Source: Terriglobales bacterium
GTDB taxonomy: Bacteria; Acidobacteriota; Terriglobia; Terriglobales; Acidobacteriaceae
Assembly: GCA_025927855.1 (NCBI GenBank)
Contig: JAICKN010000005.1
Coordinates: forward strand, 1 to 40,457
Length of the DNA stretch: 40,457 nucleotides
Reading direction: 5' to 3'
Below, piece after piece: positions 2,457 through 33,509 of this stretch; position 1 is the first letter of the stretch; each line of letters opens with the position of its first letter. A model generated the notes under the pieces. It did not search any database and was not told where the DNA came from. It saw only the letters and a program-made list of their open reading frames with translations. Position numbers and translations under genes: made by a program.

Positions 2457-3335
2457 ATGGACTGGAATAGCCGCCGCATTACCGCCGTCCTGGAGAACGC
2501 GCTGCTCGAAGACCGGGCCACGCGCGATGCGACCAGCTATGCCTGCATTGATTCCAACCAGCGGGCATCGGCGACCATCCTTGCCAAGCAGGATTGCATT
2601 CTTGCGGGCATCGGATGCGTGGCTCGCATTCTGGATGTGTTTGCCACGCTTGATGGAGCAGTCACCAGCCACTATGAAGTAACCACTCATCAGGAAATTT
2701 TTGACGGAGTGCGCCTGCATCCCCGGCAGTCGGTTGCGGTCATTCAGCACAATGCCCGGGTCATTCTTTCCTGCGAGCGGGTCATCCTCAATTTTCTGCA
2801 GCGGATGAGCGGTATCGCCACCACCACCCGTAAATATGTGGAGGCGGTTTCGGGTACGAAGGCCCGCATTCTCGATACGCGCAAAACTGTACCCGGCCTG
2901 CGTGCCATTGAAAAATATGCCGTCCGCTGCGGCGGCGGCCAGAACCACCGTCTCGACCTCTCCGACGGGGTGCTCATCAAGAACAATCACATTGCGCTCG
3001 CCGGAGGAATTGCTCCCGCGCTCGAACGTGCCCACAAAAACCGCCGGGGCAACCAGCCTATTGAAATTGAAGTGCGCACCCGGAAGGAGCTGGAAGAAGC
3101 CATCGCGTACGGCGCGGAGGCAATTTTGCTCGATAACATGAGTGTGGAAGAGGTAAAGAGCGCGGTGGAGTTCTGTTCCACCCAGAACCGCCGCCTGCCG
3201 CTCGAATGCTCCGGCGGAATCACGCTGGAAAATGTTCGCGCCTACGCCCAAACCGGCGTGGATTTCATCTCCGTGGGCGCGCTCACCCATTCCGTGCAGG
3301 CCGTGGACCTGAGCCTGCGCGTCGCGCCGGTTTAA
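2457..3335 (+). CDS. nadC: Nicotinate-nucleotide diphosphorylase (quinolinate phosphoribosyltransferase)
   Basis: The 292-residue product matches NadC, which converts quinolinate and PRPP to nicotinate mononucleotide in de novo NAD synthesis. Visible signatures are the central RKTVPGLRAIEKYAV stretch, CGGGQNHRLDLSDGVLIKNNHI with its substrate-contacting His, Arg and Lys residues, the barrel motif EAILLDNMS, and LECSGGITLENV near the C-terminus. The length is normal for the family (about 280-300). The ATG at 2457 gives an N-terminus of the usual size, although no strong ribosome binding site is visible. It lies 41 bp after valS and could be co-transcribed with it. No nadA or nadB is present in the window. 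Confidence 0.96.
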   Translation: MDWNSRRITAVLENALLEDRATRDATSYACIDSNQRASATILAKQDCILAGIGCVARILDVFATLDGAVTSHYEVTTHQEIFDGVRLHPRQSVAVIQHNARVILSCERVILNFLQRMSGIATTTRKYVEAVSGTKARILDTRKTVPGLRAIEKYAVRCGGGQNHRLDLSDGVLIKNNHIALAGGIAPALERAHKNRRGNQPIEIEVRTRKELEEAIAYGAEAILLDNMSVEEVKSAVEFCSTQNRRLPLECSGGITLENVRAYAQTGVDFISVGALTHSVQAVDLSLRVAPV

Positions 3336-3352
3336 CTTCTCACCATGGGCAA

Positions 3353-3417
3353 GTAGCGCCGCCGTCCCGGCGGCAAGAGTTGAATTCAGTGTTCAGCCGG
3401 CGGGACGCCGGCGCTAC
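3353..3417. repeat. REP-like imperfect inverted repeat after nadC
   Basis: Two 21-base arms, 3353-3373 and 3397-3417, are inverted copies of each other apart from two C/G swaps. Each has the form GTAGCGCC-SSCGTCCCG-SSGG, and they are separated by 23 bases containing GAATTC. From general familiarity with acidobacterial and related genomes, GC-rich GTAGCGCCGGCGTCCCGCCGG-type elements are dispersed intergenic repeats. The element may also act as a transcript-stabilising hairpin or weak terminator between nadC and birA, but no T-run follows it. Only one copy is present in this window. Confidence 0.7.
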
Positions 3418-3579
3418 GAACGACAAGCGCACAATGCGCGACTGTGCACGCTCTAAACAACTTAGATCATCTCGCCAGGTTTCATTTAGGAACTATCAAG
3501 AGGAAAACCGTCCATTGCCGTTGCTGTTTCGTGCAAGGTAACCGATAATTCGGGCATTACTTCTAAAAGCAAAAGAACT

Positions 3580-4590
3580 TTGTCACGCCGCGCTGCAACC
3601 AACCGCCCGGCGCAACAAACCGACGCCCGCTTGGGACAGATTGTCCGCGTACTCTCGAATTACTCCACGATGGTCATCAGCGGCGCCAAACTCGCCGCCG
3701 AAATCGGGGCCACGCGTGCCGAAGTGTGGCGGCTGGTGCAGCAGTTGCGCCACTATGGAGTCTCCATCGAAGGCCGTCCGGCCACGGGCTACCGCCTGCG
3801 CTCCATACCGGACCTGCTGCTGCCGGAAATTGTCGCGCCCCTGATACGCGGCACAATCTTCAGCCATTTTATTCATCACTATTACCGTATTGGGTCCACA
3901 AACACTACTGCGCTTGAAGCCGCCGCCGCCGGCGCGCCTGAGGGCAGCGTCTTTTTGGCCGAGCAGCAAACTTCAGGCCGCGGGCGCGGCTCCCATAGCT
4001 GGAACTCACAGCGCTCTTCGGGGATTTATTGTTCGGTCATCTTGCGCCCGGCCATGCCGCCCTCTGAGGCGCTGGTATTTTCCCTGGCGGCCGGGCTGGC
4101 TGTTCAGGCCGCAATTCAGAGTTTCCGCGTGCCTGTGGATTTGAAATGGCCCAACGACCTTTTGATCGGGGGCCGCAAGGTATGCGGCATTCTGACGGAA
4201 ATGGCCGCCGAGGCGACCCGCGTCCGCCACATCGTAATCGGAATTGGAATCAACGTTAACCAGATCACGTTCCCTCCCGAGCTGCAAAATTCTGCCATCT
4301 CCCTCCAACTGGCCACGGGCAAAGAGTGGTCGCGCGTGGAGCTTTGCGCCGCTTTGTTAAAATCACTCGACCAGGAATACCGGACGCTGCTCGAACGGCC
4401 CAACGCGCGGGAGTCGGTTTTACTAAGGTTCCAGGAGCGGTCTTCCTACGTAAAGGGACGAAAGATTTACGTCGAAGAAAATGGCGGCTACCACGGCACC
4501 ACCTACGGGCTCGATGACCGCGGATTTCTTCGCGTGCATACGCCCGACGGCATTCGGTTGGTCCTGAGCGGCTCTATTCGCGCGGTTTGA
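3580..4590 (+). CDS. birA: Bifunctional biotin--[acetyl-CoA-carboxylase] ligase / biotin repressor type
   Basis: The product (336 residues from a TTG start) attaches biotin to the carboxyl carrier protein of acetyl-CoA carboxylase. It has an N-terminal winged-helix segment (about residues 15-75, containing AKLAAEIGATRAEVWRLVQQL) and so is a group II BirA that may also regulate transcription. The catalytic domain shows the biotinyl-AMP loop QQTSGRGRGS (129-138) and the KWPND motif (189-193) with its lysine, followed by GGRKVCGILTEM. A C-terminal SH3-like domain ends near 336. TTG at 3580 keeps the whole helix-turn-helix. The next in-frame ATG (3669) would cut into it. coaX follows after 114 bp. 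No biotin operator could be recognised upstream. Confidence 0.94.
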   Translation: MSRRAATNRPAQQTDARLGQIVRVLSNYSTMVISGAKLAAEIGATRAEVWRLVQQLRHYGVSIEGRPATGYRLRSIPDLLLPEIVAPLIRGTIFSHFIHHYYRIGSTNTTALEAAAAGAPEGSVFLAEQQTSGRGRGSHSWNSQRSSGIYCSVILRPAMPPSEALVFSLAAGLAVQAAIQSFRVPVDLKWPNDLLIGGRKVCGILTEMAAEATRVRHIVIGIGINVNQITFPPELQNSAISLQLATGKEWSRVELCAALLKSLDQEYRTLLERPNARESVLLRFQERSSYVKGRKIYVEENGGYHGTTYGLDDRGFLRVHTPDGIRLVLSGSIRAV

Positions 4591-4704
4591 TAATCTTGTT
4601 CGATAAGCAGATTGAATAAATTGACACGCTGGAGTTTGGAATTCGCCAGCGGGACGACGGCGGCAATCGCCCATTCAAAATCAGAAGCGCCGGGATCACA
4701 ACTT

Positions 4705-5679
4705 ATGCTGCTGGTTCTCGATGTAGGCAACACCAACACGGTGCTCGGAGTCTTCGCCAAGGCCACGAACCTGCATCCGCAGCGCAGCGCCGCCGGCACT
4801 CCGGCGCATTATGATTTGCTGGTGGCCAACTGGCGGGTTTCTACCATCGTCCGCCAGACCACCGACGAATATGGCGTCGTCTTCCGGCAGCTTTTTTCCA
4901 TGGCATCGCTGCAGGCTTCGGAAATTGACGGCATCATCATCTCTTCCGTCGTGCCGCCGCTCGATTCAACTTTGCGCCAGGTCTGCGAACGCTATTTCCA
5001 TAAGAAACCGCTGTTCATTGAACCCGGAGTGAAAACCGGAATGCCTGTGTTGTACGACAATCCGGCCGAGGTGGGCGCCGACCGCATCGTGAACTCCGTT
5101 GCGGCATTTGAAAAGTACGGCGGACCCTGCATTGTGGTGGATTTTGGTACGGCCACAACCTTCGATTGTGTTTCGCCGCGCGGGGAATATCAGGGCGGAA
5201 TTATCTGCCCCGGCATTGGGATTTCCGCCGAGGCGCTCTTTGCCCGCACCGCCCGCCTGCCCCGCGTGGATATCCGCAAACCCGCTCAGCTCATTGGCAG
5301 CAACACTGTCGGCAGCCTGCAATCCGGCTTGTACTATGGCTATCTTTCTCTCGTGGATGGAATTGTTAAATTGCTGTTGGATGAGATGGGCAACGATACA
5401 AAAGTGGTCGCCACCGGCGGCTTGGCCTCGCTGATCGGTCCAGGCTCACAATACATCGAGCACGTGGACGAGTTTCTGACCCTGCAAGGCCTGCGCGTCA
5501 TCTGGGAACGGAATGCCAACGCAAAGCCTGCCCGGCAGCCTGCGGTGAAAAGCGTCACAACGGCAGCCGCCACTGCGCAGCAATCATCTTCTGCTGAGAA
5601 ACCGCTCCCGGCGAAAACGGTCTCCGCGAAACAAATTCCCGCCAAGCCTTGGCCCAGCGGCAAGTCCCGGTCGCATTAA
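4705..5679 (+). CDS. coaX: Type III pantothenate kinase
   Basis: CoaX phosphorylates pantothenate in the first step of coenzyme A synthesis. The start at ATG 4705 places the phosphate-binding motif DVGNTN at residues 6-11, as in the family. An in-frame TTG at 4612 would add 31 unlike residues and is less likely. Other signatures are VGADRIVNSVAAF (123-135), VVDFGTATTFD and GGIICPGIGISAEALFARTA. At 324 residues the protein is longer than the usual 255-265. There is an extra loop of about 15 residues after LGVFAKATN, and a tail of about 56 residues after RVIWERN (from about residue 269) rich in Ala, Lys, Pro and Ser. The tail looks disordered. The next gene starts 3 bp after the stop, so the two are almost certainly one operon. 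Confidence 0.95.
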   Translation: MLLVLDVGNTNTVLGVFAKATNLHPQRSAAGTPAHYDLLVANWRVSTIVRQTTDEYGVVFRQLFSMASLQASEIDGIIISSVVPPLDSTLRQVCERYFHKKPLFIEPGVKTGMPVLYDNPAEVGADRIVNSVAAFEKYGGPCIVVDFGTATTFDCVSPRGEYQGGIICPGIGISAEALFARTARLPRVDIRKPAQLIGSNTVGSLQSGLYYGYLSLVDGIVKLLLDEMGNDTKVVATGGLASLIGPGSQYIEHVDEFLTLQGLRVIWERNANAKPARQPAVKSVTTAAATAQQSSSAEKPLPAKTVSAKQIPAKPWPSGKSRSH

Positions 5680-5682
5680 ATC

Positions 5683-6393
5683 GTGGAAAATTATTTCAAT
5701 TATTTCACCGAGGTAGAAGAGCAGTTCCAGCGCCGCCGCGGCACGATTCTCCTGCTTTCTACCCTTGATTGGGCGCTCATAGAGACCTGGAAGGATGCGG
5801 GGATTCCGCTCGCCGCAGTGCTGCGCGGCATTGACGCCGCATTCGACCACTACGCAAGCCGCCCTTCCAAAACCCGCAAGGTCAACAGCCTTGCCTACTG
5901 CGCGCAGGAAGTTCTGGCCGCCGCAGAAGAAATGAAAGAAGCAGCGGTGGGAGCGCTCCGCGAAGGAGAAGCCGGCGAAAAGCCCGCAGCGTTTCAGAGT
6001 TCCGAAATTGCGGCATTTCTTCGCCGGAACGCCGCTCAGCTTGAATCCGCCGGGCTGCCCCAGGGCGGGACGATTTCTCCAAAAACTGTGGCCACGGATG
6101 CGGCAAAAAATCTCAAGGACCTCGCCTCCAGCCTGGAATCTGCCGCCACGCCTGCCCGTTTGGAAGACTTGGAGCGCCGCCTTACCGCCATGGAAGAAAA
6201 ATTGTTTGCCGCACTGCTGGCCGCCACGCCAGATGACGATATCATCGAAGTCCGCGCCGCCGCCGACCGCGAGCTTGCCCCCTATCGCGGCAAAATGATT
6301 GCCTCGCAAATAGACCAGTTGCAAAAGCAATATTTGCAAAAGAAGCTGCTGGAAACGTACCGCCTGCCGCGTTTAAGCTTGTTTTACATGTAA
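5683..6393 (+). CDS. Conserved-looking protein of unknown function between coaX and rlmD
   Basis: A 236-residue product from a GTG start, 3 bp after coaX and 1 bp before the methyltransferase gene, so translational coupling is likely. I do not recognise the family. The N-terminus (MENYFNYFTEVEEQFQRRR) leads into a compact region with LSTLDWALIETWKDAGIPL and VLRGIDAAFDHY, a pattern that could form a small helical domain. The middle is Ala/Glu-rich and probably helical or coiled coil (about residues 75-190). The C-terminus is charged and ends RLPRLSLFYM. There is no signal peptide or membrane segment, so it is probably cytoplasmic. Tight packing in the operon and normal codon character support a real gene. 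Function cannot be assigned. Confidence 0.82.
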   Translation: MENYFNYFTEVEEQFQRRRGTILLLSTLDWALIETWKDAGIPLAAVLRGIDAAFDHYASRPSKTRKVNSLAYCAQEVLAAAEEMKEAAVGALREGEAGEKPAAFQSSEIAAFLRRNAAQLESAGLPQGGTISPKTVATDAAKNLKDLASSLESAATPARLEDLERRLTAMEEKLFAALLAATPDDDIIEVRAAADRELAPYRGKMIASQIDQLQKQYLQKKLLETYRLPRLSLFYM

Positions 6394-6394
6394 A

Positions 6395-7747
6395 TTGCGA
6401 CCAGACCCGCACTGGCGTTTGGATCACCGGAAAATCTTGGAACTTACGATCGAAAAACTCGTGTATGGCGGGGAAGGCCTGGCGCGCATTCCAGCCAATG
6501 AAGCAGCCGCAGGAAAGGCCGTATTCGTGCCATTCGTCCTCCCCGGTGAGCAGGTCAACGCCATCATCACCGAAGAAAAGTCCGGGTTCGCCCGCGCGCG
6601 GCTTGAGAGCGTGCTGCAAGCGTCTCCTCAGCGCATTGCAGCGTTATGCCCATATTTCCAGCGCTGTGGCGGATGCCACTACCAACACGCGGACTACGAT
6701 CATCAACTGCAAATTAAATCAGAAGTTCTGCGGGAAAATTTCCGCCGCCTGGCAAAACTTGAGCTGCAGGTTCCCTTGCAGGCGCACGCCTCGCCGCCGT
6801 GGAACTACCGCAACCGCACCCGCCTCAAAGCGCAAACCGCGCCGCAATTCGCGCTGGGCTATTACCGCTTCGGCTCGCATGAATTTATGCCCATTCAGCA
6901 ATGCCCGATCAGTTCCCCTCTGCTGAACCGGGCCATTGAAGCCATCCATACTTTCGGCCGGGAAAATAACACGCCCACTGGAATACAGGAACTTGAGCTA
7001 TTCGCCAACGCAGAAGATTCCGAACTGTGTGTCGAGATCCACTGCGCTCCATCCAGCGCAATTCCGGAAACGATGCGCTGGGCCGAAGCTTTGCGTTCAA
7101 ACTTTCCCCCGATTCGAGGAGTGTCCGTTTTTCAGCAGAATCCGGTAAAGCGTGAAGAAGTCATGGCCGCCTCCACAGGAACTACGCATCTCACCTACCG
7201 TGTATCCGCTGAAACCGCATATCAGGTTAGCGCGGGAGCTTTTTTCCAGGTAAACCGCCATCTCATCCGCGAGCTGCTCGAAATCGTCACCTCCGGCCTC
7301 TCCGGCCAACTGGCGCTCGACCTTTACGCCGGCTCTGGACTCTTTTCCACCGTGCTGGCCTGCACTTTTGCACAGGTGATCGCGGTTGATCCATCACCGA
7401 CCTCGCACTCCGATCTCCGCTACAATTCTCCGCCGAACGTGAAGGTGATTCGCGCCACGGCGGAGCAGTACCTGGCCAAACATAAAGAGCAACGCAAAAA
7501 ACAGGAGCATCTACGCCCGGATGTGGTCATCGTAGACCCGCCGCGGAACGGGCTTGGCGATCGCGTAACAGAAGCGCTCGTGGAGCTGGGGCCGCGGCAG
7601 ATGGTTTATGTTTCATGTGACCCAGCTACGCTGGCCCGCGATCTGCGGCGTTTGCTTGCTGCCGGGTACCGTATCGCGCAGGCCCATCTGGTAGATATGT
7701 TCCCTCAGACCTACCACATGGAAACTGTTCTCCATCTGGCGCGCTAA
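6395..7747 (+). CDS. rlmD: 23S rRNA (uracil-5-)-methyltransferase, RlmD/RumA type
   Basis: A 450-residue SAM-dependent RNA m5U methyltransferase. An N-terminal TRAM-like domain (about residues 14-70) contains EKLVYGGEGLAR. The iron-sulfur cluster cysteines are visible as CPYFQRCGGC (Cys85, Cys91, Cys94) with the fourth in QQCPI (Cys170). The methyltransferase fold has LDLYAGSGLFS, VDPPRNGL and the nucleophile motif SCDPATLARDL with Cys408. The family includes RlmD (U1939), RlmC (U747) and TrmA. The Fe-S cluster argues against TrmA, but RlmC, RlmD or a dual RlmCD specificity cannot be separated from sequence alone. The start is TTG at 6395, 1 bp after the preceding stop. An in-frame alternative further on would truncate TRAM. 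Confidence 0.9.
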   Translation: MRPDPHWRLDHRKILELTIEKLVYGGEGLARIPANEAAAGKAVFVPFVLPGEQVNAIITEEKSGFARARLESVLQASPQRIAALCPYFQRCGGCHYQHADYDHQLQIKSEVLRENFRRLAKLELQVPLQAHASPPWNYRNRTRLKAQTAPQFALGYYRFGSHEFMPIQQCPISSPLLNRAIEAIHTFGRENNTPTGIQELELFANAEDSELCVEIHCAPSSAIPETMRWAEALRSNFPPIRGVSVFQQNPVKREEVMAASTGTTHLTYRVSAETAYQVSAGAFFQVNRHLIRELLEIVTSGLSGQLALDLYAGSGLFSTVLACTFAQVIAVDPSPTSHSDLRYNSPPNVKVIRATAEQYLAKHKEQRKKQEHLRPDVVIVDPPRNGLGDRVTEALVELGPRQMVYVSCDPATLARDLRRLLAAGYRIAQAHLVDMFPQTYHMETVLHLAR

Positions 7748-7776
7748 ACCGTCCTTCGCAAATCAGGTCCACAACC

Positions 7777-10368
7777 TTGAACGAATTTCAGCCCTCGTTC
7801 CCGGCGAATCCGGAAGCCGTGCGCACCCGCCAGCCTTTACTCTGGGCCGCATTCGCCTATGCGGCTGGCCTTTTCTTCAGCTTCTATTGCCGGCGGCCAG
7901 CGATGTGGTGGATTCTCTCCGGCCTGGCCTTTGCCGCCTTCGGCAGCTACTTCCTTCGCCGCCGCGCTCTTTTCTCGCGTGCTCTTGCTCTCGCCAGCGT
8001 GTTCGCCGCCGCCGCGATCATCATGCAGATTTTCCGCCCTGCCGACCCCGGCCACGGCATTCTGCCCTTTGCCACTCATCAGGAAATTCTGGTCACCGCT
8101 CACGTAACCAAAGAAGGTGCCTGGGAAGAGCATGGCCCCGGAGAATTCCGCCAATTGCTGGATGTTGAAACGGAAAAAGTTCAGAAAGCCGGAACGAGTT
8201 ATCCCGTTCGCGCCGGGGTCCGCCTGGGAATTTATGCTAAAAGTTCCAGCTCAGCTTCCCTGCCGCCAAACCTTCACTACGGCCGGCACATTCAATTTCT
8301 CGGCAAGCTTTCCGTACCGCACAATTACCGCGACCCCGGCGTCTTCGATTACCGGGAGTATCTTTCGCAACATGCAATTGCGGCGGTCGGCTCCGCCAAA
8401 TGGGAAGGCGTACAACTGCTCCCCGGTTTCTGCGGCAACCGCGCGGAATTCTGGCGGAACCGCGTTCATTCCGGCATCATCGCCAAAATTCAGCGGCTGT
8501 GGCCGCCAGCGCAAGCCGCTCTCATGAACGCCATGGTGGTGGGCGATGAAAGCTTTCTAACACTGCCTACGAAAATCAACTTCCAGCGCACCGGGACTTA
8601 CCACCTGCTGGTAGTTTCCGGCATGAACGTCGGCATTCTCGCCTATGTGGTCTTCTGGGTCTTTCGGAAGTTGCGGCTTAATGAAGTTGCCGCCGGCTTT
8701 TTCACCGTTCTCCTGATTGTTTGCTATGCCATTCTCACCGATGTGGGCCCGCCCGTTTGGCGCGCCACGCTCATGCTCATTCTGTTTTTAGGAACACGGC
8801 TTTTGTATCGCGAGCGTTCCATGCTTAACGCCATTGGCATTGCCGCTCTCGGGGTGCTCGTGGCCGACCCGCGCGCCCTTTTTGGCGCGAGTTTCCAGAT
8901 GACGTTCCTTTGCGTCCTGTTGATTGCGGGCATCGGCATGCCGGTGCTCGACCGCACCTCGCAGCCGTTTTTGCGTGGATTGCGGCAACTTGCCTCCACT
9001 GCGTATGACGCTCATCTCTCGCCGCCAGTGGCGCAATTTCGCCTCGATCTGCGCATGCTTGCGCAAAGGCTGCAACCGGCGCTTGGGCCGCGCGTCCTGC
9101 CGCTGCTCGCATTTTCTTTCCGGTTTCTGCTCGCTGGCTTTGAAATTCTTTTTATCTCGGCCCTCATGCAAATCGGCTTGGCCCTGCCCATGGCATATTA
9201 TTTTCACCGCGTCACCATCACCGCCATGGGCGCGAACCTCCTTTCCCTGCCCCTTATGGAAATTATGATGCCCGCCGCCGTGCTTGCAGTTTTTATCGGC
9301 TATTTCTCCATTCTGCTGGCAAAACTCCCTGCCTTCGTTGCGGGCTTGGCGCTGGAAGGCATTACTCATGCCATTCGTCTCTTCGGGGGCCTTCGCATCT
9401 CCGATGCCAGAGTGGCGACACCCTCTTTGCTTGTGGTCCTCGCCGCGTCTTCGGCCATTGCAGTGGCCCTTCTGCTGGCCAGAAAACGGCTCGCACATTG
9501 CTTTGCCGGCGTCGCGATCATGGGCTTGAGCGCATTGTGGATCGCAGCCGTCCCCGCGCCCCCGCAATTTAGGCGGGGCGCGCTCGAAGTCACCGCGATT
9601 GATGTGGGACAAGGAGATGCACTGCTGGTTGTTTTCCCCGAAGGTCACACGCTGCTCGTGGACGCAGGCGGCCTGCCGCAATGGGCACATTCGGATTTCG
9701 ATGTGGGAGAAGAAGTCGTCTCGCCATATCTTTGGTCGCGCGGCATCAGCCACCTCGATGCCGTCGCTATTACCCATCCTCATGCCGACCACATTGGAGG
9801 CATGGCGGCGGTGCTGGAAAATTTTCAGCCGCGTGAGCTTTGGATGGCGGCCAACACGCGCGGCCCGGAGATGGAGCGCCTGCTCCGCGAAGCCCGCCAA
9901 CTTGGCATCACCATCGTGCCGCACACCGAGGGCGACCAATTTACAGAAGGGAAAGTCGTATTTCATATACTCGCTCCCGGCCCGTCGGACGAGGAAAATG
10001 CGCGGAACGCGAATGAAATTTCTTTGGTGATGAAGATTACCTACGGAAACACTTCCGCGCTGCTGGAAGGCGATGCGGAGAAAAAAGCCGAACGCCATAT
10101 TGCGGAGGAAGACGCTCGCGCCGACTTGCTGAAAGTAGCGCACCACGGGAGCGCGACTTCAACCATTCCGGAGTTCCTGAATGCGGTGCATCCCCAGTTC
10201 GCTGTAATTTCAGTGGGCGCCAATAATGTGTACGGGCATCCGCGGCGCGAAGTGCTGGAGCGGCTGGCTGAGGCCCATGTGTTCACCTATCGCACCGACA
10301 TCGAAGGCGCGGTTTCTTTTTATCTGGACGGAAAAACCGTGACCCCGGCTCTGCCCGCCTTGCAATAA
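7777..10368 (+). CDS. comEC: ComEC/Rec2 competence DNA-uptake channel with metallo-beta-lactamase domain
   Basis: An 863-residue inner-membrane protein with the full ComEC architecture. It has N-terminal membrane helices, an OB-like periplasmic domain (about residues 95-230), the polytopic Competence domain (about 245-590, with GTYHLLVVSGMNVGILAYVV) and a C-terminal metallo-beta-lactamase-like domain. That domain carries DVGQGDALLV (from 609), the metal-site motif THPHADHIGG (666-675) and KVAHHGSATS. The family carries single-stranded DNA across the inner membrane during natural transformation, and the C-terminal domain is thought to degrade the non-transported strand. The TTG start at 7777 is 29 bp after rlmD. 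An upstream gap of about 200 bp after its stop marks the end of the plus-strand run. comF occurs about 6 kb away. Confidence 0.95.
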   Translation: MNEFQPSFPANPEAVRTRQPLLWAAFAYAAGLFFSFYCRRPAMWWILSGLAFAAFGSYFLRRRALFSRALALASVFAAAAIIMQIFRPADPGHGILPFATHQEILVTAHVTKEGAWEEHGPGEFRQLLDVETEKVQKAGTSYPVRAGVRLGIYAKSSSSASLPPNLHYGRHIQFLGKLSVPHNYRDPGVFDYREYLSQHAIAAVGSAKWEGVQLLPGFCGNRAEFWRNRVHSGIIAKIQRLWPPAQAALMNAMVVGDESFLTLPTKINFQRTGTYHLLVVSGMNVGILAYVVFWVFRKLRLNEVAAGFFTVLLIVCYAILTDVGPPVWRATLMLILFLGTRLLYRERSMLNAIGIAALGVLVADPRALFGASFQMTFLCVLLIAGIGMPVLDRTSQPFLRGLRQLASTAYDAHLSPPVAQFRLDLRMLAQRLQPALGPRVLPLLAFSFRFLLAGFEILFISALMQIGLALPMAYYFHRVTITAMGANLLSLPLMEIMMPAAVLAVFIGYFSILLAKLPAFVAGLALEGITHAIRLFGGLRISDARVATPSLLVVLAASSAIAVALLLARKRLAHCFAGVAIMGLSALWIAAVPAPPQFRRGALEVTAIDVGQGDALLVVFPEGHTLLVDAGGLPQWAHSDFDVGEEVVSPYLWSRGISHLDAVAITHPHADHIGGMAAVLENFQPRELWMAANTRGPEMERLLREARQLGITIVPHTEGDQFTEGKVVFHILAPGPSDEENARNANEISLVMKITYGNTSALLEGDAEKKAERHIAEEDARADLLKVAHHGSATSTIPEFLNAVHPQFAVISVGANNVYGHPRREVLERLAEAHVFTYRTDIEGAVSFYLDGKTVTPALPALQ

Positions 10369-27522: not shown

Positions 27523-28899
27523 TCATTCTCCGCCGACGGTGAGGCCATCAATGCGGATGGTAGGGCAGGCGGCGGAGCTGCGGAATTCAAGATCGTTGCC
27601 GATTTCAGAAATATTGGCAAAGATATCCTTCAAATTTCCAGCGACGGTGATTTCTTCTACCGGATAAGCAAGTTCGCCGCCGGAAATCCACACGCCAGAA
27701 GCGCCACGCGAGTAATCGCCCGTCACGAGATTCGCGCCATGGCCAAGAAATTCCGTGACATAGAGCCCGTCCTGAATTCCGGCAATGATCTGCTGCGGAG
27801 TTTTCCTGCCCGGCTGCAAAAAGTAATTCCCAATACCGATACCGGGAGTTCCAGCCAGACCGCGCGCAGCGTTGGCGGTAGTTTGCAAGCCAAGTTTCTT
27901 GGCAGTGTAGGTGTTAAGCAAATATGACTTCAGCACGCCGTTCTCGACCACTAGAGTGCGGCGCGTGGGGATGCCTTCTCCGTCGAAGGGGCTGCTGCCA
28001 AAACCACCGGGCATGGTTCCATCGTCAACGATAGTCACTCCTTCGGCGGCAATTTTTTCTCCCAGCTTGCCCGCCAAAAATGAAGCGCCGCGGTAAACCG
28101 CATCGCCGTTCACGCCTTCGAAAATATGCTCGATAATGGAAACAGCCACAAGAGGATCGAACACTACCGGCACATGCGCGGTTTTCACCTTGCGAGCTCC
28201 CAGGCGGCGCAGAGTGCGCTGGGCGGCGATTTTGCCGACCTGCTCAGGATTTTCCAGCTTGCTCAAGCTGAGCGCGGAAGAAAACCAGTAATCGCGCTGC
28301 ATGGCGCCATCTTCGGTTTGCGCAATGGGAACTGCGGCAACGGAACAATGCGAACGGCGGTATTCACCGACGAATCCGTGCGAGTTGGCGAGAACTTTGT
28401 GGCCGGTAGCGGCATCGAAAGAGCCGCCATCGGAATTTTTAATGCGCGCATCGTAATCGAGCGCGGCTTTTTCGGCCCGTCTCGCATAGTTAATGCGGTC
28501 TTCATTGGGAAGCGAATAGACATCCGGGTAATACAAGCCCAACTCGGCCGGGATTGCCCCTAGTTGATCGGGTTCAGGAATACCGGCAAAAGGGTCTTCC
28601 GAAGTAATCCGCGAAAGATCCAGGGCAGATTGCACCATTCGATCCAGGCCATCGCGGGAAAAGTCGCTGGAGTAGGTGCTGGCGCCGCGCTGGCCATTGA
28701 ACACGCGCACGCCAATGGCCTTCGACCCTGATTCTTTGAGTTGCTCGACTTGTCCCAGACGTACGAGAGTAGAGAATTCATCGCCTTCACGAATAACGCA
28801 CTCGGCGGCGGTTGCGCCGCCCTTCATGGCCCGGTGGACAATGTCCTGAGCCAGGGATTTAAGGTCAGTTGCCGGTTTTTTTTCGAGAGCTATAGCCAT
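27523..28899 (-). CDS. pmbA: TldE/PmbA-like metalloprotease partner subunit
   Basis: A 458-residue member of the TldD/PmbA family. Recognisable stretches are ESGSKAIGVRVFNGQRGASTYSSDF (residues near 58-82), VPVVFDPLVAVSIIEHIFEGVNGDAVYRG, DDGTMPGGFGSSPFDGEGIPTRRTLVVENG and GASGVWISGGELAYPVEEITVAGNL. The HExxxH zinc motif of TldD is absent, as expected for the TldE subunit, which forms a heterodimer with TldD. The family degrades unfolded peptides and, in E. coli, matures microcin B17 and takes part in CcdA turnover. tldD lies upstream on the same strand, 160 bp away across a dispersed repeat. Normal length; start at ATG 28899. Confidence 0.93.
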   Translation of the reverse strand: MAIALEKKPATDLKSLAQDIVHRAMKGGATAAECVIREGDEFSTLVRLGQVEQLKESGSKAIGVRVFNGQRGASTYSSDFSRDGLDRMVQSALDLSRITSEDPFAGIPEPDQLGAIPAELGLYYPDVYSLPNEDRINYARRAEKAALDYDARIKNSDGGSFDAATGHKVLANSHGFVGEYRRSHCSVAAVPIAQTEDGAMQRDYWFSSALSLSKLENPEQVGKIAAQRTLRRLGARKVKTAHVPVVFDPLVAVSIIEHIFEGVNGDAVYRGASFLAGKLGEKIAAEGVTIVDDGTMPGGFGSSPFDGEGIPTRRTLVVENGVLKSYLLNTYTAKKLGLQTTANAARGLAGTPGIGIGNYFLQPGRKTPQQIIAGIQDGLYVTEFLGHGANLVTGDYSRGASGVWISGGELAYPVEEITVAGNLKDIFANISEIGNDLEFRSSAACPTIRIDGLTVGGE

Positions 28900-29059: not shown

Positions 29060-30517
29060 CTATTGCATGAACCCGCCGGGATCTTTTCTCGCAGTCCCGC
29101 CCACCGTGAGCCGGTCAATTTTAATGGTCGGAATGCCTACACCCACCGGCACGGCCTGCCCATCTTTGCCGCAGGTGCCAACGCCTTCGTCCAGCTTGAG
29201 ATCGTTGCCCACCATGGAAACGCGCGTGAGCACATCCGGGCCGTTGCCGATTAAAGTTGCGCCTTTAATGGGAGCGGTCACTTTGCCATCTTCAATCATG
29301 TAGGCTTCCGAAGCCGAGAAGACAAATTTTCCGTTCGTAATATCAACCTGCCCGCCGCCAAAATTTACGGCATAGATGCCGTGCTTTACGGATCGAATAA
29401 TGTCCTCGGGACTTTCCTCGCCGGCCAGCATGTAAGTGTTGGTCATGCGCGGCATGGGAATGTGCTCATAACTTTCCCGGCGGCCATTGCCGGTATCGGC
29501 CATGCCCATGAGCTTTGCGGAAAGCTTGTCGCTCAAATAACCCTTTAGAATTCCATTTTCAATCAATACGGTTTCCTGCGTGGAGTGGCCTTCGTCATCC
29601 ACATTCAAGGAGCCGCGCCGCCACGGCATTGTGCCGTTATCCACCACTGTGCACTTTTCACTGGCCACGCGCTTGCCGATAAGGCCGGCAAAAGCTGAGG
29701 TTTGTTTGCGGTTGAAATCGGCTTCCAGGCCGTGACCTACAGCTTCATGCAGCAGCACGCCGGGCCAGCCGGGGCCGAGCACAACTTCCATTTCGCCTGC
29801 CGGAGCTTCCCGCGCGTCGAGTTGCAGAATGGCCTGCCGCGCGGCCTCACGAGCGAAGTACTCCGGCGTTTTTTCGCCGAAGAAAAAGTCCAGCGCAACC
29901 CGGCCGCCGCCACCGGAGCTGCCCCGGCCGGAACTTCCCTCCGCTTTGGCGATGGCGGAAACATTCATGCGCGCCAGCGGCTGGGAATCTTCCGCAAAGG
30001 TGCCGTCGGACCCAACAACGAGGATGTGCCGTAACTCGTCTGCATAGTTGGCGCGGACTTCTTTGATTCGCGGATCATAACTTCGCGCCGCGCTATCACC
30101 GCGCATGAGCAATTCGACTTTTGCCGTCAGTTCCGCATCCACCGAAGGAAGCGGCACCGGGTACAAGCTGCGGGCGGGCTTTTGTTGAAACCCCGCAACC
30201 GTGGCCTTGGCCGGGCCGCTCGCGATCAGGGCCGCCGTCCGGGCCGCATGCAAAATCCGCTCCGGGGAAAGATCGTCCGTGTAGGCATAGCCGGTGCGCT
30301 CGCCGGAGAGGACGCGAACTCCACATCCGGCGGAAATCCCCTGCGAAGCCGTTTTCACCATGGACTCGTCGAGACTAAGCGACGTGGACGAAAGATATTC
30401 AAAATAAAGGTCGGCGTAGTCGCCTCCGGCGGAAAGGGCCGCTGCCAGATAGCGTTCGAGATCGTGCTGGGTCAGGCCATAATGCTGAAAAAAGAATTTA
30501 TTCTGTTCCACGGTCAT
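29060..30517 (-). CDS. tldD: TldD metalloprotease catalytic subunit
   Basis: A 485-residue protein from ATG 30517, chosen because it aligns with the start of known TldD proteins. The frame is open 37 codons further upstream. The zinc motif HEAVGHGLEADF is present (His257, Glu258, His262), followed by FNRKQTSAFAGLIGKRVASEKC and VVDNGTMPWRRGSLNVDDEGHSTQ. The C-terminus includes MPRMTNTYMLAGEESPEDII and FGGGQVDITNGKFVFSASEAYMIEDGK, all typical of the family. With TldE it forms a cytoplasmic peptidase that degrades short unfolded peptides and can process RiPP precursors. A Gly/Ser-rich loop near residues 215-225 is longer than usual. The divergent neighbour gene's first in-frame ATG lies only 4 bp away. 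Confidence 0.94.
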   Translation of the reverse strand: MTVEQNKFFFQHYGLTQHDLERYLAAALSAGGDYADLYFEYLSSTSLSLDESMVKTASQGISAGCGVRVLSGERTGYAYTDDLSPERILHAARTAALIASGPAKATVAGFQQKPARSLYPVPLPSVDAELTAKVELLMRGDSAARSYDPRIKEVRANYADELRHILVVGSDGTFAEDSQPLARMNVSAIAKAEGSSGRGSSGGGGRVALDFFFGEKTPEYFAREAARQAILQLDAREAPAGEMEVVLGPGWPGVLLHEAVGHGLEADFNRKQTSAFAGLIGKRVASEKCTVVDNGTMPWRRGSLNVDDEGHSTQETVLIENGILKGYLSDKLSAKLMGMADTGNGRRESYEHIPMPRMTNTYMLAGEESPEDIIRSVKHGIYAVNFGGGQVDITNGKFVFSASEAYMIEDGKVTAPIKGATLIGNGPDVLTRVSMVGNDLKLDEGVGTCGKDGQAVPVGVGIPTIKIDRLTVGGTARKDPGGFMQ

Positions 30518-30520
30518 TGG

Positions 30521-32257
30521 ATGTATGGCAAGCCGGGAAGGACTCCGGACTGTTTCATTATCCCACATCATCTTCGCCGTTCCGCGTGGCCAACGCTGGA
30601 TTTTGCCAGAATCGGGCACAGCCTCCAATGTTCATTCGTCACAGACGGCAGCGGGCGCGTGGTGTGCAATCCTGCCGTGACTCCAGACCAGCTATCCCAG
30701 ACTATTGAAGGCTTTCTCGCCGGCTCTAGGGAAGCCGTGATTACGGAAAATGGCGAGCTGGTTTTTGATCTCTCTGAATCCCGCTATTCAATTTCAGGCG
30801 AGCATCACAAATGCTTGCTGCACGTGTGGTCAGCGGAGCGGAATGTCGTCCGGCGCGTGCTTGACATGGAAATTAAACGAGACGTGCTCCGTTTCCAGGT
30901 GCAACGCCTGGGACAAACCAAGCCCGGCAAACTTGAGATTTGCCGCCGGAGGGACGCACGCACTCCCACGGCGAAGCGGATTACCCGCGTGGCTTATCGA
31001 AATAAATTAGAACGTTTGCTGGAGAGACGTTTCCCCGGATTCAAAGTCACTGATCTCGTGACCACGCCGGACCTTGAACGGTCATTTGGTCCCGTCTATA
31101 CGCGCGGCCTTTTGCAGCGAGGGCAAACAGCATTCGCCGTGCTGGGAGTAAATGCGGAAGAAACTGCGGCGTCCGTACAGGCTGCTCTGACATTCGGAAT
31201 CCTATGGCTCGACTTATGCAGGCAAGCCCATTCCGGAAAGCTCGTGGTGGAGGGGCTCAAACTTATTGCCCCTCGGGGCACATCGGCAATTCTCCGCGAG
31301 CGCATGGGGCGGTTGAACCACGCCGCTGCCAAGTGGCAGCTATATGAATTCGACGAGCAGGAAGACACCATCACGGAACTCGATGTGAGCGATAGCGGAA
31401 ATGTCTCCACACGCCTGGTTCATTGGACGGATCCGGCAGTGACTTATACGCGCTTCGCAAGCCAGATCGCCGAAGTGCGGCAGCTTATGCCGGAAGCCGA
31501 GGCGGTCGCGCTCTCGCCTGTAGAAATGGTCTTCCGGCATCGTGGACTGGAATTTGCCCGTGGCAGGCTGGCCCTGCGCATAGATTCATTTCGTGCTTCC
31601 GGCGAAATCGTATTCGGCCTCCCCCCGGCGGAACGTGTGCTGGATGAGCGGAACTATCCTGCGTTCGTGCAATTGGTGCGAAGCATTGGGGAAGCACGCC
31701 ATGCAGAGGGGCCAAAAGATAATTTGCTGTGGCGCATTCATCCGGAACGGTGGCTGGAGTCGCTGGTGTTGCGGGATGTGAGCGCTCTGGATGAGCAGTT
31801 GGATTGCGCGTTCAATTATTCCCAGGTGCCGGCGTTCTCTTCCTCGGCGCGGGCCATCATGGATGTGCTTGCTGCTACCCGGCAGGGACGCCTTGCCGTT
31901 ATCGAACTTAAAGCGGATGAGGACATTCACTTGCCGATGCAGGGCCTGGATTATTGGTCACGCGTGGCCTGGCACCATGCGCGGGAGGAATTCAAGAACT
32001 ACGGATACTTCGCGGGCCGTGAATTAACCAACGAATTGCCCTTGCTGATGCTGGTCGCTCCCGCCCTGCGCATACATCCTGCGACGGACACGCTGTTGCG
32101 CTATCTTTCTCCCGCCATTGACTGGGTATTCACCGGGATTGGCGAACAATGGCGGGAAGAGATCAAGGTGATTTTCCGCAAGCGCTCGAAAAAATCTTCG
32201 ACAAAATCAGAAACGCGCGGCCCGGAAACTTTGGAAGAGTTTGCCAAGCCCGCGTGA
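30521..32257 (+). CDS. Unrecognised protein with PD-(D/E)XK nuclease-like motif
   Basis: A 578-residue protein if it starts at ATG 30521. The frame extends further upstream, but that part is antisense to tldD. GTG codons at 30659 and 30662 are alternative starts leaving a normal-size divergent promoter region. Near the C-terminus the sequence IMDVLAATRQGRLAVIELKADED has the layout of a PD-(D/E)XK nuclease core: Asp448, then Glu462-x-Lys464 on the next strand, followed by a helix (MQGLDYWSRVAWH) like the conserved one in this superfamily. The N-terminal 400 residues are not recognised. They contain charged, mixed alpha/beta sequence without membrane segments. It is not accompanied by a methylase or helicase, so a restriction system is not supported. 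DNA repair or another nuclease role is possible. Confidence 0.82.
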   Translation: MYGKPGRTPDCFIIPHHLRRSAWPTLDFARIGHSLQCSFVTDGSGRVVCNPAVTPDQLSQTIEGFLAGSREAVITENGELVFDLSESRYSISGEHHKCLLHVWSAERNVVRRVLDMEIKRDVLRFQVQRLGQTKPGKLEICRRRDARTPTAKRITRVAYRNKLERLLERRFPGFKVTDLVTTPDLERSFGPVYTRGLLQRGQTAFAVLGVNAEETAASVQAALTFGILWLDLCRQAHSGKLVVEGLKLIAPRGTSAILRERMGRLNHAAAKWQLYEFDEQEDTITELDVSDSGNVSTRLVHWTDPAVTYTRFASQIAEVRQLMPEAEAVALSPVEMVFRHRGLEFARGRLALRIDSFRASGEIVFGLPPAERVLDERNYPAFVQLVRSIGEARHAEGPKDNLLWRIHPERWLESLVLRDVSALDEQLDCAFNYSQVPAFSSSARAIMDVLAATRQGRLAVIELKADEDIHLPMQGLDYWSRVAWHHAREEFKNYGYFAGRELTNELPLLMLVAPALRIHPATDTLLRYLSPAIDWVFTGIGEQWREEIKVIFRKRSKKSSTKSETRGPETLEEFAKPA

Positions 32258-32318
32258 GTTTTCTTAAACCAGGAGCAGAAAGTTTTTGCTTCTAATCTGC
32301 TACCCTGTTGCTTCACGC

Positions 32319-33509
32319 ATGGGCATCGGGCACAACCAGCGCAGGGTCCTGCTTCTTCTATTATTCGCAGCCAGCATCGGGCTGGCAAATTGCGGCAATC
32401 CTCGGCCGCCGGAGCCGCCATCGCTCGAATTGCCTCGCGCAGTTCGCGACCTTCGAGCCAGGCGAAAAGGCGACCAGGTTCAACTGACGTGGACAAAGCC
32501 GCAGAGAACCACCGAAGGCGAAATGATTTTGTACCTCGGGCCTACGCGGATTTGCCGGAGTTTGGCGCCGGTACTGCGGGATTGCGGCACGCCCGTGGGG
32601 GAAGTGCCACCCGCTCCACGTTCCTCTTCGTCCTCCTCCATCCAAAAGGCTTCCAAACTTCCATTGCAAATGCACCTTTCTTCCCCCGTGGATGGAAGTT
32701 ACACGGACACGCTTCCAGCCGCAAATATTTCCGATCCGGATGCCGAATATACGTTTGCACTGGAAGTTCTCAACCAGGCGCAGCGTTCCGCTGGATTTTC
32801 CAACCAGGTGCATGTTTCCGCTGTGCCCACTTTGCCGCCGCCGGTGAATTTTCATGCGCAGCTGAGTTCCAACGGAGTTCAACTCGCCTGGTCACCACAA
32901 CCGTTTTCATCCGATACGAACAGGGTTCGGCACGTGATCCGAATTTATCGACAAGAGCAAACCGCACAGGGAGAACAGAAGGCACAGAAACCCAATCGGG
33001 ATGTGATCATTGCGGCCTTGCCGCTCTCAGCCACTCAATACATGGATGCGGGTATTGAATGGGAAAAGACATATGTCTATCACGCCACTATTGCAAGTGT
33101 TGTCCAAAGCGCGGGATGTTCTAATGCAAGCAACGCAGCGGAATGTAAAACGGAATACATAGAGGGCAATGACAGTCCGAGTGTGACTGTGTTCGCTCAT
33201 GACGTGTTTCCCCCGGAGACGCCGACCGGACTGCAAGTGGTATTTGGCGGGACTGCGGGCCATTTAGTGATGGACCTGGTGTGGAACCCGGATACCGATT
33301 CCGATCTGGCTGGATACAACGTTTACCGCCAGGAACCTGGGGGCGAGTGGGAGAAGATCAATACCGCGCTTGTAAAAACATCTGCTTATTACGATGCGGG
33401 CGTCACCGCAGGAAAGACTTACAACTATTCCGTCTCTGCGGTGGACGTGCATGGAAACCAGAGCGCGCGGTCAATCCCAGCGCAGGAAACTGTTCCCTCC
33501 CAACCTTAA
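32319..33509 (+). CDS. Lipoprotein with fibronectin type III-like domains
   Basis: A 396-residue precursor starting at ATG 32319. The signal peptide ends in a lipobox (IGLANC, with Cys at about 23), so it should be a lipid-anchored envelope protein. The mature part has three beta-sandwich repeats: one beginning PRAVRDLRARRKGDQVQLTW, a second around PPVNFHAQLSSNGVQLAW, and a third at ETPTGLQVVF followed by DLVWNPDTDSDLAGYNVYR and YYDAGVTAGKTYNYSVSAVD. The last is a clear fibronectin type III domain. A Ser-rich stretch interrupts the first repeat. Such domains bind proteins or sugars at the surface. No enzyme domain is present. Start codons 33 bp upstream would give a non-lipoprotein leader and are less likely. 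Confidence 0.85.
   Translation: MGIGHNQRRVLLLLLFAASIGLANCGNPRPPEPPSLELPRAVRDLRARRKGDQVQLTWTKPQRTTEGEMILYLGPTRICRSLAPVLRDCGTPVGEVPPAPRSSSSSSIQKASKLPLQMHLSSPVDGSYTDTLPAANISDPDAEYTFALEVLNQAQRSAGFSNQVHVSAVPTLPPPVNFHAQLSSNGVQLAWSPQPFSSDTNRVRHVIRIYRQEQTAQGEQKAQKPNRDVIIAALPLSATQYMDAGIEWEKTYVYHATIASVVQSAGCSNASNAAECKTEYIEGNDSPSVTVFAHDVFPPETPTGLQVVFGGTAGHLVMDLVWNPDTDSDLAGYNVYRQEPGGEWEKINTALVKTSAYYDAGVTAGKTYNYSVSAVDVHGNQSARSIPAQETVPSQP

Follow-up and report, generated by a model that had tools for sequence, protein, structure and literature searches.

The locus analyzed in this work raises the question of which function is exerted by an acidobacterial protein in which, from the sequence, only a PD-(D/E)XK-like nuclease core had been recognized. 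The gene lies on the plus strand of a 40,457-nucleotide stretch of a Terriglobales bacterium (contig JAICKN010000005.1), referred to here as the window. Database searches agree with the initial annotation of an otherwise unknown protein: no Pfam or NCBIfam model reached its cut-off, and PHROGs provided no usable family name. LodA_N, R2K_3, and DUF5044 were rejected as family assignments, since each match was weak and confined to a single member. A phmmer and profile search of PDB sequences returned only 1zov (E 0.61) and the NucS protein 2vld (E 1.3). In a library of viral structures, the single match below E 0.001 was Gp54 of Bacillus phage G (E 3.3e-4), and the rows that follow include MmcB-like phage proteins. 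The literature search, which is weakened by the spelling of PD-(D/E)XK, retrieved neither a dead or tandem PD-(D/E)XK protein nor a Terriglobus endonuclease.

Reading frame and C-terminal nuclease domain

An open frame on the plus strand covers 30035 to 32257, and MDVLAATRQGRLAVIELK...QGLDYW was found in place in the window sequence. The frame given by the initial annotation is correct, but its length of 578 residues, counted from ATG 30521, is not retained, since homology with close relatives sets in around residue 4-12 of a 532-residue form that starts at GTG 30659. ATG 30521 is located 4 bases from 30517, where the divergent tldD gene probably starts (Met38 of the tldD ORF), and is unlikely to be used because a start there leaves almost no gap between the two genes. 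GTG 30659 or, alternatively, GTG 30677 is the likelier start, the exact position being uncertain, and inspection by eye revealed no convincing ribosome-binding site ahead of either. On the basis of the open frame and the start of homology, the nuclease gene is placed at 30659..32257 (plus strand; 532 residues). All residue numbers refer to this form, in which Asp402, Glu416, and Lys418 correspond to residues 448, 462, and 464 of the 578-residue form.

AlphaFold2 models, VIA-align, and hhalign delineate a PD-(D/E)XK domain with a complete predicted active site at 31655..32188 (plus strand; residues 333-510). The full-length model, computed with 13 sequences, has a pLDDT of 84.8 and a pTM of 0.72 and carries an α-β-β-β-α-β core within residues 346-501; the VIA matches to PD-(D/E)XK chains concur, so that the core postulated initially is recovered in the predicted structure. 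The Asp and the Glu-x-Lys in PD-(D/E)XK spacing, followed by QGLDYW, are present as had been described. The active-site stretch D402 ... E416-x-K418 ... Q428-x3-Y432 spans 31862..31954 (plus strand), with the codons of D402 at 31862-31864, of E416 at 31904-31906, and of K418 at 31910-31912. Besides the nuclease core, conservation of Asp402, Glu416, and Lys418 had been set beforehand as a test that could refute a nuclease assignment. In an alignment of 128 distinct rows, these three residues were kept together with E363, Q428, and Y432 in 127; the sole exception, L054, comes from a gene split across two frames, of which it is one fragment. W433, Q389, and F451 are likewise identical in all 127 rows that have a letter there. 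The alignment comprises the window protein and 127 homologues from 14 named loci and 113 fetched genomes, with identical copies counted once; its members were retrieved with a profile of alignment A1 (13 sequences).

The structure that ranks first for this domain is EndoMS: residues 346-501 superimpose on 5gke_A with a Z score of 12.0 and an rmsd of 2.4 Å over 114 aligned residues (VIA-align), followed by Can2 (8bao_A, Z 8.8). PD-(D/E)XK proteins occupy the first ranks in the structure searches. For the full-length model, Foldseek found nothing below E 0.001, its best match being the NucS structure 2vld at 2.0e-3. A relationship to NucS is also suggested by profile comparison. The profile of the active domain made from the 128 rows matched NucS with an hhalign probability of 93.3 (E 2.8e-7), pairing E363, D402, E416, K418, Q428, and Y432 with EndoMS positions 132, 165, 179, 181, 192, and 196, of which position 165 is Ala in the 5gke chain and Asp in 2vld. 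With 13-row alignments, the match of the C-terminal half to NucS was weaker (probabilities 43.7 and 36.0). The set E, D, E-x-K, and Q-x3-Y, which we take to be the catalytic set of NucS, is present in the active domain according to both the hhalign pairing and the conservation in 127 of the 128 rows. Taken together, the model and the alignment support a conserved PD-(D/E)XK nuclease domain with a full active-site set in the second of two predicted nuclease folds. An open frame of 184 residues in another genome (L141, G267:C13:170205-170633) matches the active nuclease domain alone and may be a stand-alone or a truncated form.

A predicted degenerate nuclease fold and comparison with known systems

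The first 400 residues had been considered unrecognizable. This view has to be revised, since residues 105-241 correspond to a degenerate nuclease fold and residues 1-250 match EndoMS in structure. The second PD-(D/E)XK fold, apparently dead as judged from VIA matches and missing catalytic residues, maps to 30971..31381 (plus strand; residues 105-241). Its predicted elements follow the PD-(D/E)XK order, namely, a helix (105-124), three strands (129-134, 147-154, and 157-164), a helix (170-190), and a strand (196-205). In the full-length model, residues 107-243 match PD-(D/E)XK chains with VIA-align Z scores of 8.2 to 10.0: PaqCI (10.0), EndoMS 5gkj_B (9.6), XisH (9.1), 2okf (8.7), and R.BspD6I2 (8.2). 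When the N-terminal half was folded alone, EndoMS (9.4), XisH-type proteins (8.7-8.9), and N.BspD6I (8.1-8.4) were retrieved, with lower rows occupied by RNA polymerase subunits (up to 7.5), acetyl-CoA carboxylase (up to 6.6), and Arf proteins (4.6). The level at which unrelated chains fit the dead fold is indicated by acetyl-CoA carboxylase and Arf GTPases (Z 4.4-6.6). The fold of the dead domain resembles that of XisH, the fdxN element excision factor (2inb and 2okf; Z 8.7 to 9.1), but XisH-type chains have 128-129 residues as compared to 532 in the acidobacterial protein.

The position of the catalytic Asp falls at about R149, which is an Arg in 97 of the 124 rows with a letter there, and L120 has a Glu; setting gaps aside, an Asp was found at columns 147-151 in none of the 128 rows. 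The Glu-x-Lys position lies at about residues 162-164, which are L162 and V164 in the window protein. None of the rows (102 to 125 with letters) has Lys paired with Gln or an acidic residue in the five registers tested, from 160/162 to 164/166, and acidic-x-Lys strings anywhere in 140-170 were observed in 5 of 128 rows. Since the catalytic residues are absent across the rows, the domain at residues 105-241, as modelled, is very likely inactive as a nuclease.

Two further domains complete the predicted chain. The N-terminal domain (30683..30946, plus strand; residues 9-96) is similar in position and make-up to the N-terminal domain of EndoMS, for which an eight-stranded, half-closed β-barrel with a helix is described in an excerpt of PMC8228993, as compared to the seven strands and one helix of the model here. 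Its best single-domain row in VIA-align is YojF (1njh, Z 6.8); this likeness is weak, and any kinship of residues 9-96 is tentative. Between both nuclease folds, AlphaFold2 places a small domain (31433..31615, plus strand; residues 259-319) that consists of four strands and two helices. Its G296-L297-E298 is invariant in the 13 rows of A1, and in the 128 rows G, L, and E are found in 125, 116, and 77, respectively. The models support the layout [β-domain + dead nuclease] + [small β-domain + live nuclease].

Folded alone with 14 sequences, residues 1-250 gave a pLDDT of 87.8 and a pTM of 0.63, and Foldseek ranked EndoMS 5gke_A first, with E 4.8e-4 and a probability of 0.97 over 246 columns (rmsd 16.2). 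VIA-align placed residues 4-235 of this model on EndoMS residues 9-239 (173 residues, rmsd 15.7). An rmsd of about 16 may be read as two domains that each fit singly in a changed relative orientation. At the sequence level, no similarity was detected between the N-terminal half and NucS (hhalign probability 0.3) or between the two halves (0.4; 0.7 for nuclease fold against nuclease fold), so that a duplication can be deduced from the architecture only. A match between alignments A2 and A3 that resembled an internal duplication was rejected as an artefact, the L013 row of A2 having crossed the cut into the second half.

EndoMS/NucS (5gke and 2vld; PF01939 and NF003270) is the closest known system, and it shares with the acidobacterial protein the nuclease fold and the active-site set and its order in the active domain; the order of β-domain and nuclease fold of EndoMS also recurs in the N-terminal half. 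The protein is not a member of NucS proper, because the profile cut-offs, the chain layout, and the clamp tail all differ. Pfam NucS_C gave no match up to E 1 in the 13 members, and NF003270 remained below its cut-off in the 5 of 13 members in which it matched (best E 0.036), so that neither PF01939 nor NF003270 is matched over its cut-off. The EndoMS/NucS chain consists of one β-barrel and one nuclease domain in about 250 residues, whereas the acidobacterial chain has 532 residues and two nuclease folds, the first of which is apparently dead. A C-terminal sliding-clamp motif was seen in none of 134 ORF tails with patterns of our own, and among the 7 of 128 rows that matched a looser pattern, L006 and L012 carried it close to the C-terminus. 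Unlike EndoMS/NucS, the acidobacterial gene occurs alongside MutS/MutL. Separate proteins that match PF01939 (NucS_C) over its cut-off were found in 2 of 41 relatives, on open frames of 363 and 366 residues (L075, G411:C1:35136-35333; L076, G321:C62:17231-17476); these represent further NucS-like nucleases within the same bacterial family.

A second parallel is Can1 (CRISPR ancillary nuclease 1), which likewise combines in a single chain [domain + dead nuclease-like] and [domain + active PD-(D/E)XK]. In the portions of PMC6981274 consulted, Can1 is described as a CARF domain with a dead nuclease-like half and a CARF domain with a live nuclease half in one chain that nicks supercoiled DNA, duplication and fusion being proposed as its origin. 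According to the same portions, charge reversal in the dead domain abolishes activity, which suggests a role in DNA binding (PMC6981274). However, Can1 has CARF domains, is switched on by cyclic tetra-adenylate, and serves in CRISPR defence, whereas β-domains are modelled in the acidobacterial protein, for which no CARF family was matched in Pfam or NCBIfam.

Inheritance and gene neighbourhood

The gene was identified by a single-sequence search in 116 of 396 sampled Acidobacteriota genomes (107 of 338 near-complete ones), including 44 genomes of the family and 47 of the class of the window, its own genome counted. The profile search raised the number to 118 of 396, the additional genomes G206 (E 4.2e-4) and G216 (6.4e-5) having weak, short matches. 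The 20 negatives listed, to which 260 more are to be added, are all from the same phylum only. Among 41 relatives of the same genus, family, order, or class, 38 are positive (24 of 25 in the family, 12 of 14 in the order-level family f88, and 2 of 2 other members of the class). All 29 near-complete relatives have the gene, the three misses concern genomes that are 73-89% complete, and several of the matches in fragmented genomes are partial. One match was obtained in 113 of the 116 genomes, and the two matches in G130, G273, and G352 are neighbouring pieces of a single locus; in G149, the profile finds a second, weak match in another protein. A scan of genome contigs limited to short exact peptides provided 14 loci with the titles Acidobacteria, Acidobacteriaceae, or Bryobacterales.

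Of the 115 other positive genomes, 113 were fetched (G259 and G331 were left out). In a midpoint-rooted FastTree phylogeny of 126 sequences, which omits L054 and L141, all 14 families with at least two labelled members form clades, with supports from 0.66 (f54) to 1.0; the 14 named loci, which are without family labels, were set aside in this comparison. The single locus and the tree that follows taxonomy support a vertically inherited chromosomal gene. The reading frame is broken in the assemblies of L004 (5917-7162), L013 (5683-7388), and L054 (8534-10216), through either decay or assembly error.

The window gene is flanked by tldD, a pmbA-like gene, an unnamed gene, and an Nramp-like gene. 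The divergent tldD (29060..30628, minus strand) matches NCBIfam NF008006 with 580.7 bits (cut-off 513); the match starts at residue 50 of the ORF, and the coding start is probably 30517. The pmbA-like gene beside it (27523..28899, minus strand) scores 367 bits with NF008268, under the cut-off of 438. Across the 55 loci compared, tldD is located upstream on the opposite strand in 20, the window included, and a pmbA-like gene is present in 17, with L047-L049 set aside since their 26-27% matches fall on tldD itself. The gene downstream (32286-33509) has a weak NCBIfam match to the exoglucanase CbhB, far under the cut-off, appears by eye to be lipoprotein-like with fibronectin type III repeats, and gave no tblastn match at 1e-10 in the fetched loci. 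No constant partner and no fixed repair-gene neighbour was found across the 55 loci: topA and dprA occur at two that also have truB downstream (on the same strand in L058 and on the opposite strand in L014), and a uvrC-like gene, labelled from its sequence, lies within 2 kb in 7 loci and anywhere in 12.

Proposed function and alternatives

These data lead us to propose, with moderate confidence, that the protein is a chromosomal, metal-dependent PD-(D/E)XK endonuclease, a NucS-like single chain with one active site, which probably nicks and takes part in genome upkeep. DNA is assumed to be the substrate by analogy with the nearest structures, and we further infer nicking, a repair role, and an origin by duplication of a NucS-like ancestor. 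The first nuclease fold has apparently lost its active site and would probably act as a scaffold and DNA-binding wall. By analogy with Can1, the two halves may close around DNA, so that the C-terminal site cuts one strand. A single active site per chain predicts cleavage of one strand, as in Can1, provided that the protein does not dimerise. Its task would be the upkeep of the cell's own DNA, with damaged or irregular structures being removed or marked. The protein represents a nuclease family for which neither Pfam nor NCBIfam has a model; its catalytic domain is NucS-like, and its combination of a live and an apparently dead nuclease fold is unusual. If the proposal is true, a large, little-studied phylum would possess a lineage-wide genome-maintenance nuclease that lacks a model in either database, and its chain would be a natural counterpart of a dimeric repair enzyme, fused into one polypeptide in which one half is inactivated. 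Direct comparison with EndoMS would then inform on how a nickase might arise from an enzyme that cuts both strands, in parallel to Can1.

A more specific version of this proposal is possible, if doubtful: a single-chain descendant of a NucS-like enzyme, with one active site, may recognize mismatched or damaged bases with its fused halves and nick one strand, which would give Acidobacteriota, in addition to MutSL, another way into repair that selects one strand. That the enzyme replaces canonical mismatch repair is rejected, since MutS and MutL, each present in 38 of 41 relatives, coexist with the gene; no MutL match was found in the genome of the window, which has a completeness of 90%.

The initial annotation had left the choice between a new repair and a new defence nuclease. 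A defence enzyme against phages or plasmids, either restriction-like or a solitary effector, would be in line with the weak similarity to the PADLOC candidate PDC-S11, whose matches are confined to the nuclease domain and involve model PDLC04916 in 13 of 13 members and PDLC04915 in 12 of 13, with a best E of 1e-7; for the window protein, the best E was 9.9e-5 in the 578-residue form and 8.7e-5 in the 532-residue form. The similarity covers about 55-85 residues of the nuclease domain and, near the N-terminus of the models, about 60-85 of their 347-379 positions, the remainder of which has no match; the literature consulted on PDC-S11 offers no mechanism. Shedu, Can2, and Cap4 are also among the structural neighbours (VIA-align). 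No methylase or helicase gene adjoins the nuclease gene in the window, as initially stated. Of the 18 neighbourhoods (of 55) that were read gene by gene, with 10 suspicious genes scanned for families, two have methylase or type I restriction genes within about 6 kb: L056, with HsdS and HsdR parts of type I restriction (3266-8242) 1-6 kb upstream, and L069, with two D12 methyltransferase genes (5077-7306) 1-3 kb upstream and one gene between. Within about 6 kb, a Phd/PIN pair (L005), Uma2 (L062), and Mrr_cat (L050) represent further defence- or toxin-antitoxin-type genes. However, these neighbours were picked by eye with no background rate, and their kinds vary between lineages. Furthermore, the window protein matched nothing better than E 0.07 among 50,697 phage records and nothing better than E 0.9 among 72,556 plasmid records. 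The choice can be narrowed, circumstantially, towards chromosome maintenance rather than mobile defence because of the one locus per genome in all 116 positive genomes, the presence in 38 of 41 relatives, and the tree that follows taxonomy in all 14 testable families; the restriction and methylase genes near 2 of the 18 loci are at odds with it, and a defence function is considered unlikely. Two pattern-limited scans of viral contigs (IMG/VR) gave one match (L145, 16-1524), located at the extreme end of its contig and followed by a gene that is dtd-like by eye; this is probably host DNA adjoining a prophage.

A rather improbable alternative is that the protein, like NucS, works as a dimer and cuts both strands, the dead domain being a mere spacer. 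The active domain is closest to EndoMS, which an excerpt of PMC8228993 describes as a homodimer that makes double-strand breaks, but the acidobacterial chain already has two nuclease folds and a dimer would carry four, which is an argument and not a test. An RNA-processing nuclease for tRNA or rRNA is quite improbable: in 7 of 55 loci, truB, encoding a tRNA pseudouridine synthase (family confirmed in L058 only), is the next gene downstream in the same orientation, and in L057-L061 the two genes overlap at their ends, but truB was not seen at the other 48, where tldD (20 of 55) or other genes adjoin, and the nearest structures are DNA enzymes. In L012, L014, and L057-L061, the gene is followed on the same strand by truB and a prkA-like kinase gene, presumably YeaG/PrkA.
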